Below are positions 11,885 through 41,817 of a DNA stretch of 48,597 bases, piece by piece. Location: positions 1-48,597 of the forward strand of contig CANQSO010000003.1 of the NCBI GenBank assembly GCA_947626535.1, in the 5' to 3' direction. Within the stretch, counting starts at the first letter, position 1. Each line of letters opens with the position of its first letter. This DNA is from an uncultured Bacilli bacterium. Lineage in GTDB: Bacteria > Bacillota_I > Bacilli_A > RF39 > UBA660. Under the pieces are notes generated by a model, which had not been told where the DNA came from, did not search any database, and was given only the letters and a program-made list of their open reading frames with translations. The position numbers were made by a program, and so were the translations under genes.

Positions 11885-12226
11885 TTAAGCATTAAGTTGT
11901 AATTGGTAAGGTTCAGAATAAGTACCTTCACCTGATGTTATTGTTACATTTTTATTTAGATAACCGACCGGATCGACCTCGAACACGCCGTTTGCACCGC
12001 CGTAGCCGACAAGCCCAGAAGAATTGACACGGAACACACTGGAGGAGCTAGAAGAATACGGGGATAAAGTCCATAAAGTATCACTTGGTTTTAACCAGTC
12101 TGTTCCTCCACATTCACTTTGGTAATTAATATTTTCAACTGTTTTAGACCAATTAAATAATTCTTTTGCAAAACATTTTTCCCTTCCGATACTTCCTCCA
12201 TTTGTTGCATATCCATAATCACTTGA
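11885..12226 (-). pseudogene. 3' remnant of a DGR-type variable surface protein gene
   Basis: An open frame of 113 codons without a start runs from 12226 to the TAA at 11885. It begins SSDYGYATNGG and continues through WSKT, GGTDWL and WTLSPYSSSSSSV. It ends with VTITSGEGTYSEPYQL. This matches the C-terminus of prepilin-like or lectin-like variable proteins of gut Firmicutes, whose last about 35 codons are rewritten by diversity-generating retroelements. Bases 11957-12064 are far richer in G and C than the surroundings and are full of NNY codons (TCT, AGC, TCC, GGC, GAT), as expected when adenines of AAY template codons are replaced. An in-frame stop precedes codon 1 where the ICE joins. No template repeat or reverse transcriptase is visible. 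Confidence 0.75.
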
Positions 12227-40892: not shown

Positions 40893-40942
40893 TTCCATCA
40901 CCCCCATTTCATTTAGTTTTTTTACGAGCTCCCTATAAACTC

Positions 40943-40969
40943 AAAAAAAAAGAATGAATTTAATCACTC
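40943..40969 (-). terminator. Terminator after the sigma-like regulator gene
   Basis: GAGTGA and TCATTC pair (one G-U) around a six-base loop, followed by nine T residues on the minus strand. The first arm covers the stop codon. Confidence 0.65.
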
Positions 40970-41482
40970 TTCACAATATTTTTCTAACTCTGTCCACATT
41001 TTTACAATACAGCTTTTTTTGATTCTTTGTAAATAAGTTTTAGAAATACCAATTATTTCGGCAATACTTTCTTCCGATTTATGTTGAAAAAAAGTATTAA
41101 TTAAATAAACACATTCCGAATTAGTTAATCGGCTACTTACATCTAAAATTGTATTATAAATCTCTGTTGTTAGTATTTGTTTATCAACATATTTTTCAAC
41201 TGCTTTTTCAATTTGACTTTGACTTGATTTTTGAAAGCATATTTCCTTTGATTCATAAGTAGGAGTTATTCTCATAGCATTTGATACTGGAAATTTATAT
41301 AGATATTTTGCCGATTTAAAATTATCAAATAATTTTAGTAATTTTTTTCTTTCATTCAAAATATCATAATAATTTAACAAATCTTCGCCTAGTAATTCGT
41401 TTTGACTATTACTTATTTTTACATTTTGTTCTATTGCGTCGCAAATGTTTACTAATTGTTCAAACGTTACTATTGCATTCAT
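40964..41482 (-). CDS. Sigma-70 region 4-like regulator of the ICE
   Basis: 172 residues. The C-terminal part, LTNSECVYLINTFFQHKSEE then SIAEIIGISKTYLQRIKKSC, is a helix-turn-helix of the sigma region 4 / ArpU type. No region 2 is present, so it is probably not a full sigma factor; Tn916 Orf7 and phage ArpU are functional parallels. The start is the ATG at 41482, eight bases after AGGAGG. A leader peptide and attenuator precede it, so its synthesis is probably the switch for ICE gene expression. Confidence 0.7.
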   Translation of the reverse strand: MNAIVTFEQLVNICDAIEQNVKISNSQNELLGEDLLNYYDILNERKKLLKLFDNFKSAKYLYKFPVSNAMRITPTYESKEICFQKSSQSQIEKAVEKYVDKQILTTEIYNTILDVSSRLTNSECVYLINTFFQHKSEESIAEIIGISKTYLQRIKKSCIVKMWTELEKYCEE

Positions 41483-41505
41483 CACTATTCCTCCTACCTA
41501 TTAAA

Positions 41506-41549
41506 AAAGAGATTTCAAGAGTGCATAAAAACACAATTAAAATCTCTTT
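41506..41549 (-). terminator. Attenuator hairpin before the sigma-like gene
   Basis: On the minus strand AAAGAGATTT (41540-41549) and AAATCTCTTT (41506-41515) form a perfect 10-bp stem around a 24-base loop, followed by a T tract. The 5' arm is made of the last codons of the 19-codon leader peptide. A ribosome finishing the leader would cover that arm and permit readthrough. Confidence 0.75.
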
Positions 41550-41596
41550 GATTTTTCTTTACTACTTTCTAAATCTTTTTTCAGTAAACAAATCAT
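41537..41596 (-). CDS. Leader peptide (19 codons) upstream of the sigma-like gene
   Basis: An ATG at 41596, behind CAGGGGATG, opens a 19-codon frame (MICLLKKDLESSKEKSKRF) ending at 41537. It lies between a promoter and an attenuator whose 5' arm overlaps its last codons. Small size, a good ribosome binding site and this placement are characteristic of leader peptides controlling transcription attenuation, as known upstream of tet(M) in Tn916. No resistance gene follows; the first gene is the sigma-like regulator. Confidence 0.65.
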   Translation of the reverse strand: MICLLKKDLESSKEKSKRF

Positions 41597-41627
41597 AAAT
41601 GAATCATCCCCTGTAAATATGTGACTT

Positions 41628-41655
41628 ATTTTAATACAATTTATTAAATTGTCAA
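41628..41655 (-). promoter_or_regulatory. Promoter of the ICE leader and sigma-like gene
   Basis: TTGACA (41650-41655), a 16-base spacer and TAAAAT (41628-41633) on the minus strand, about 32 bases before the leader-peptide ATG. This is the most upstream promoter clearly belonging to the ICE. Confidence 0.7.
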
Positions 41656-41769
41656 GAGTAGAAAAATCATACTTATAAAAAAACGAGCTATTTCCTTTCA
41701 GAATTAACTCATTTTACCTCATTATACACTACTCTAGTCTATAAACAATAAACTAAATAGTATTTTTTT

Positions 41770-41817
41770 AGTAAACCAATTAGTAAACCAAATAGTAAAC
41801 TAAATAGTAAACTAACT
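41770..41817. repeat. Four tandem 12-bp repeats
   Basis: Four consecutive units of the type AGTAAACYAAWT cover 41770-41817, with a fifth diverged copy near 41748-41760. The last unit overlaps the stop codon of the oxidoreductase gene. The 12-bp period keeps the units on nearly the same helical face, which suits a protein-binding array, but simple repeat slippage is also possible. Confidence 0.75.

Follow-up and report, generated by a model that had tools for sequence, protein, structure and literature searches.

Can an ICE place its own regulator directly under the control of the translating ribosome? This question is raised by the window, the whole stretch of 48,597 nucleotides analyzed here, a contig apparently from an uncultured lineage of gut Bacilli, which carries an ICE with its relevant genes on the minus strand. 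The ICE encodes a large serine recombinase, a MobL-type relaxase, VirD4- and VirB4-type ATPases and, in addition, an M23 peptidase, a sortase and a SpaA-repeat surface protein. The initial annotation had described a leader peptide and an attenuator in front of a sigma-like regulator of this element and had likened the arrangement to the leader of tet(M) in Tn916. Based on the analysis presented here, we read the locus as a ribosome-dependent transcription attenuator placed in control of the ICE's own regulator, and we assign this reading a probability of about 0.72.

Organization of the regulator locus and its product

Between positions 41655 and 40964 of the minus strand, a promoter, a leader ORF, a terminator hairpin with a T run, a Shine-Dalgarno sequence and the regulator gene follow one another in this order, and all parts of the anatomy claimed by the initial annotation are thus present. 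The predicted promoter P2 (41628..41655), obtained by a consensus scan with 11/12 matches, consists of TTGACA (41655-41650) and TAAAAT (41633-41628) with a spacer of 16 nt. It is followed by a weak, G-rich ribosome-binding site, AGGGGA (41612-41607), and by a leader ORF (41537..41596) of 19 codons, MICLLKKDLESSKEKSKRF, which extends from the ATG at 41596 to the TAA at 41537. The attenuator is a terminator hairpin (41507..41548) with a predicted folding energy of about -17 kcal/mol and a T run next to it (41506-41503). As had been proposed, its 5' arm overlaps the last codons of the leader, with the TAA located at the inner end of this arm. Downstream follow the Shine-Dalgarno sequence AGGAGG (41495-41490) and the gene of the 173-aa regulator (40964..41482); the ORF as listed starts with GTG at 41485, and an in-frame ATG is located at 41482. 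The attenuation layout is placed directly on the ICE regulator with no resistance gene in between, again in agreement with the initial annotation.

The locus contains the parts of a ribosome-dependent transcription attenuator, namely a promoter, a ribosome-binding site with a short ORF and an intrinsic terminator before the gene. The attenuated RNA is predicted to have a length of ~120 nt. Within the full leader RNA of the window, the terminator shows a pairing probability of 0.99, and the whole leader RNA of this locus folds better than its shuffled counterparts (z -2.1). The hairpin escaped a mechanical terminator scan because its loop is larger than the limit of that scan. The chance of finding such a leader at the window locus alone is ~0.5–2% by shuffling; the strong evidence for the predicted switch is comparative, rather than drawn from this single locus.

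The regulator protein features a sigma-region-4-like HTH at its C-terminus, where NCBIfam sigma models match weakly but consistently. Since these matches are limited to the C-terminal half and a sigma-70 factor comprises both region 2 and region 4, the earlier description as a "sigma-like regulator" is fair for the region-4-like C-terminus, whereas "sigma factor" is not. PHROG 248 ("transcriptional activator") matches most of the protein (residues 38-170; 3.2e-5, a weak score) as well as 17/18 aligned homologs at E up to 1, the best at 4.2e-7. We take the activators of PHROG 248 to be of the RinA/ArpU type. The regulator resembles them, and sigma region 4 proteins, in being a small protein with a C-terminal sigma-region-4-like HTH, but differs from the PHROG 248 set by its weak scores and by its origin from an ICE of uncultured Bacilli. 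The structure model of the regulator reached a mean pLDDT of 79 with a middle part of low confidence, and a Foldseek search with this model found nothing at E <= 0.001; among its partial matches, those to sigma domain 4 are the best supported. An hhalign comparison with Orf7 of Tn916 was restricted to a 34-residue HTH match. No regulator homolog was found in plasmids and phages; IMG/VR contained two relatives. Two tandem regulator homologs were observed at L144 (G000:C7:17800-19400) in the same genome and at G020:C20:10367-11588 in another genome.

Recurrence of leader and terminator in related elements

Searches at the level of the family, the order and named genomes provided regulator homologs, which were condensed to 80 distinct loci representing 56 clusters at 60% identity. 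A terminator was scored if it had a strength of at least -10.5 kcal/mol and ended 12-45 nt before the regulator. Such a terminator is located just upstream of the regulator in 32/56 clusters, compared to 0.75 expected from dinucleotide shuffles. Wherever a terminator was nearby, we scored leaders, defined by an ATG with a ribosome-binding site and a stop codon within the hairpin. A leader ending inside the hairpin was found at 41/54 loci (1.7 expected from shuffles) or, counted by cluster, in 24/33 (1.1 expected), where the public homologs are metagenome-assembled genomes, the clusters are related and the shuffles ignore phylogeny. The leader stop codon falls into the 5' arm in 28 cases, the loop in 10 and the 3' arm in 3, while 8 further leaders traverse the whole hairpin. 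In the window as well as in homologs, the leader ends above chance at a place where a ribosome would mask the terminator.

Leader and terminator are mostly present together or absent together (cluster odds ratio 30, p = 3.5e-7, ignoring shared ancestry), and a promoter with 11/12 matches lies upstream of the leader in 11/24 clusters, compared to 0.4% of shuffles. The stem is kept between clusters while its sequence differs; within a close attenuator group, two pairs have both sides changed, and the RNAalifold covariation term by itself is not favourable. The predicted terminator dominates in the full RNA with a mean pairing probability of 0.90. A search for a conserved antiterminator gave no basis for claiming one, as pairing of the 5' arm with RNA further upstream has a mean of 0.38 and varies between 0 and 0.8. 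Ribosome-dependent transcription attenuators form an alternative antiterminator structure in some members, not in all. The conservation of the leader in homologous ICEs, on which the initial annotation had staked its reading, is borne out for the frame by its position (24/33 clusters against 1.1 expected) and fails for the peptide. At the level of sequence comparison, these data demonstrate that the predicted geometry of leader and terminator recurs with unrelated peptides and unrelated stems.

A second ICE, on contig C1 of the same genome, provides an independent example from close by. Its regulator is 54% identical to that of the window and is likewise preceded by promoter, leader and hairpin in this order, with a different leader, MIDLKENLILNKNLLIQNINKKRFLSGFYAL, ahead of its stop codon; the upstream neighbours, a NUDIX and an oxidoreductase gene, match those of the window. 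Matches on contigs C4 and C6 of this genome (G000) were rejected as chance coding matches. In a class-wide sample of 395 genomes, matches were confined to the window's own family. About 23/56 clusters are without a near terminator, including one (L013) with a regulator 51% identical to that of the window. Because of these clusters and of the 8 leaders that traverse the hairpin, the leader-terminator module is not essential.

Further upstream, the region contains a promoter-like element, P1 (41680..41748, minus strand; TATAATGAGGTAAAATGA), with TTGTTT, 16 nt and TATAAT (41726-41721); a small hairpin with a T run (41715-41680) belongs to it. Using a loose regex, a P1-like element was detected in 24/56 clusters, and it is kept in many homologs, some of them without leader and attenuator. 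Upstream of P1, Tandem Repeats Finder identified an iteron-like array (41769..41812) with 3.7 copies of the 12-bp unit TAGTAAACCAAA, which may possibly provide candidate binding sites for the regulator. Other ICEs of the family carry different repeats at the position of these iterons.

Constraint on the leader and proposed operation of the switch

The leader peptides are unrelated between elements and share no common motif. No conserved stalling peptide of the erm or msr/mef type was found among the leaders, and MICLLKKDLESSKEKSKRF shows no run of codons for one amino acid, unlike the leaders of amino-acid biosynthesis. In six close pairs with counts summed, pN (0.067) and pS (0.077) of the leaders are about equal, meaning no purifying selection. 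The same six pairs contain 0 frameshifting indels inside the leader ORFs vs 7 in the flanks, which were about as long as the ORFs (end-of-alignment artefacts left out). For example, the window leader and that of L042 (MICLFKKNLENSKEKSKRF, then stop) are of equal length, with flanks differing by indels. Considering that pN is close to pS and that frameshifts are absent from the ORFs, the constraint seems to lie on translation up to a fixed point in the hairpin rather than on the peptide. Such a pattern fits generic ribosome-dependent attenuation and speaks against an arrest peptide tied to one drug, against an amino-acid sensor and against a small functional protein. The leaders of the window and L042 are identical at 16/19 residues and the corresponding regulators only 57% identical, which suggests that control region and gene have been exchanged separately.

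Among known systems, Tn916 is regulated at least partly by attenuation, and translation inhibitors relieve this attenuation and induce Tn916 (PMC9632896, PMC9154091). The leader/attenuator of its tet(M) gene is orf12 (Su et al. 1992, as cited in PMC9632896 and PMC9154091). The present locus shares with tet(M) a short leader ORF overlapping an intrinsic terminator before the controlled gene of a Gram-positive ICE, and GG..TTTTATG.CC looks common to the inner loops. However, the tet(M) leader of the pCF10 Tn916-type element has 28 codons and spans the whole attenuator, whereas here the stop codon is located inside the 5' arm, so that the analogy drawn initially holds for the general layout and not for the extent of the leader. 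Moreover, tet(M) is a resistance gene (ribosomal protection), while here the regulator itself is controlled, and the leader peptides are not related. In its mode of action, the predicted switch would resemble tet(M) attenuation, without belonging to the tet(M) leader family. Unlike the window regulator, the sigma-like Orf7 of the pCF10 Tn916-type element is without a terminator ending <=45 nt from its start, the nearest hairpin ending ~140 nt upstream. The mef(E)/msr(D) and erm(K) attenuators also combine a leader peptide with an intrinsic terminator on a mobile element (PMC4335068), but use the conserved arrest peptide MTASMRLR and drug-bound ribosomes, in contrast to the absence of a conserved peptide here. 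A precedent for a generic sensor is the toiL uORF of Escherichia coli topAI, where one uORF answers several classes of ribosome-targeting antibiotics (PMC12121999); toiL affects topAI translation and then Rho, whereas the present leader is overlapped by an intrinsic terminator.

How could such a switch operate? On the transcript starting at P2, the short leader ORF would come first, followed by the intrinsic terminator directly before the regulator gene, and a ribosome translating the leader would end within the 5' arm or loop of the terminator. If a ribosome is situated at the leader end during synthesis of the 3' arm, it would cover the 5' arm, the terminator would not form and the regulator would be transcribed. 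If there is none, because initiation is poor, the ribosome stalls early or it leaves the RNA before the 3' arm has appeared, the ~120-nt RNA would be released. The switch would accordingly read the timing of the ribosome relative to the polymerase, with the peptide itself not being the signal, and any change of the translation rate, including that caused by sub-inhibitory ribosome-targeting drugs, could shift it. A ribosome slowed near the leader end is expected to turn the switch on, and one stalled early, or a block of initiation, to turn it off. The regulator would then, as we infer, activate the transfer genes. Since the geometry allows a ribosome at the leader end and one stalled early to act oppositely, the sign of the drug response is unreadable from sequence; the induction of Tn916 by translation inhibitors leans to the direction proposed by the initial annotation, namely that ribosome slowing or antibiotic stress turns on ICE genes.

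With the opposite sign, the attenuator might act as a fitness gate, in which brisk translation of the leader close behind the polymerase leads to readthrough. Regulator synthesis would then take place largely in hosts that translate fast, and the ICE would be turned down by translation inhibitors or starvation. Such a gate is rather unlikely in our view: the stop codon in the 5' arm would let a timely ribosome permit readthrough and an early-stalled one not, and the leader peptides contain no stall motif, both of which fit the proposal, but Tn916, the nearest known layout, is induced rather than silenced by translation inhibitors, and masking would last longer with a ribosome slowed at the stop codon. 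Alternatively, the leader could be specific for a drug or an amino acid and stall the ribosome in response to one signal, through its nascent peptide or through repeats of a single codon, in the manner of the erm, msr and biosynthetic leaders. Peptides of this sort do occur in known attenuators of ribosome-directed resistance genes, MTASMRLR of mef(E) being one of them (PMC4335068); the lack of a motif common to the leaders, the similar pN and pS in close pairs and a window leader free of runs of one regulatory codon make such specificity improbable here.

The remaining explanations deny the leader or the hairpin its role. Insulating terminators are known in mobile elements, e.g. T1 of Tn916 (PMC11658703), and the hairpin could be a plain terminator of this kind that shields the regulator from upstream transcription, with a fortuitous leader ORF. 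Given a hairpin-ending leader in 24/33 clusters vs 1.1 expected, the co-occurrence of leader and terminator and a promoter between the upstream genes and the hairpin, we consider this very improbable. Hardly any weight is left for a leader that encodes a functional small protein (a toxin or signal) next to an incidental hairpin; the leader ORFs are indeed kept together with their start signals, but there is no conservation between elements and no purifying selection in close pairs, and the stop codon repeatedly lies inside the hairpin.

If the ribosome-dependent attenuator operates as outlined above, elements that lack a resistance gene could be woken or silenced in many gut bacteria by sub-inhibitory levels of ribosome-targeting drugs or by nutritional stress. 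The attenuator would also offer an unusually clean natural series for separating the features that a leader ORF has to retain (frame, start and stop position) from the one that is free to vary (the peptide), since many of these leaders have their geometry in common and little else. The recurrent layout with unrelated decoy peptides suggests that the element watches ribosome movement and not one drug or nutrient. The nearest known case is tet(M), from which the direct placement of the predicted attenuator on the element's regulator differs; the precedent search covered open-licence papers, and the lack of a precedent in them does not prove novelty.

A preQ1-I-like element downstream of the regulator

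The regulator gene ends in its own terminator (40943..40969, minus strand), which lies over the stop codon and consists of GAGTGATTAAATTCATTC followed by a T run. The overlap of this stop codon with a second terminator hairpin has the same geometry as that at the leader. Directly after this terminator, GAGTTTATAGGGANCTC and then AAAAAACTA are found at 40948-40907 of the minus strand. Comparison of copies and Rfam describe this segment (40907..40948), located before the first downstream gene, as a preQ1-I-like pseudoknot, GAGTTTATAGGGAGCTC, with the A-rich tail AAAAAACTA.

The 17-mer GAGTTTATAGGGANCTC occurs 14 times in 193 family genomes, compared to 0 for a reversed control pattern. A near-invariant element downstream of the regulator is also present at L002, L012, L017, L018, L027, L040, L042, L043, L050, L113, L186, L187, L188, L195 and L197, and a relaxed regex places it after the regulator in 10/48 clusters. 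The examined 17-mer occurrences lie just downstream of such regulators, with the exceptions of L194, by a RelA/SpoT-like frame, and L196, an apparent chance match. Although absent from the search pattern, the tail AAAAAACTA is invariant in 18 collected copies; a further copy, L139, is without it. A base pair extending the stem is kept in 18/18 copies in the forms U-A, U-G, C-G and A-U.

Rfam found no family at its gathering score anywhere in the window, and the best match at this element is preQ1 class I, with 15.4 bits vs a gathering score of 39. In the comparison with preQ1-I, the pseudoknot pairs and the tail fit, but A, C, G or T can occupy the position of the specificity base, which is G in the window. 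All class I members recognise preQ1 by a cytosine (PMC11625349). As this cytosine is not conserved in the element, a true preQ1 riboswitch was rejected, and by that test the element is a preQ1-I-like pseudoknot. The element may be an orphan variant of a riboswitch or, heading the next operon, an RNA of the antitermination type.

Combining both RNA elements, we tentatively propose, at slightly less than even odds, that an ICE family of uncultured gut Bacilli carries a peptide-independent ribosome-timing sensor directly on its regulator, which would leave the timing of the element's action to general translational stress rather than to a resistance gene, and that in part of the family the second RNA, the preQ1-I-like pseudoknot without the preQ1 specificity base, would guard the downstream genes. 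Beside the recombinase end of the ICE, a short GC-richer stretch (11960-12080 of the window) resembles a fragment of a foreign gene.
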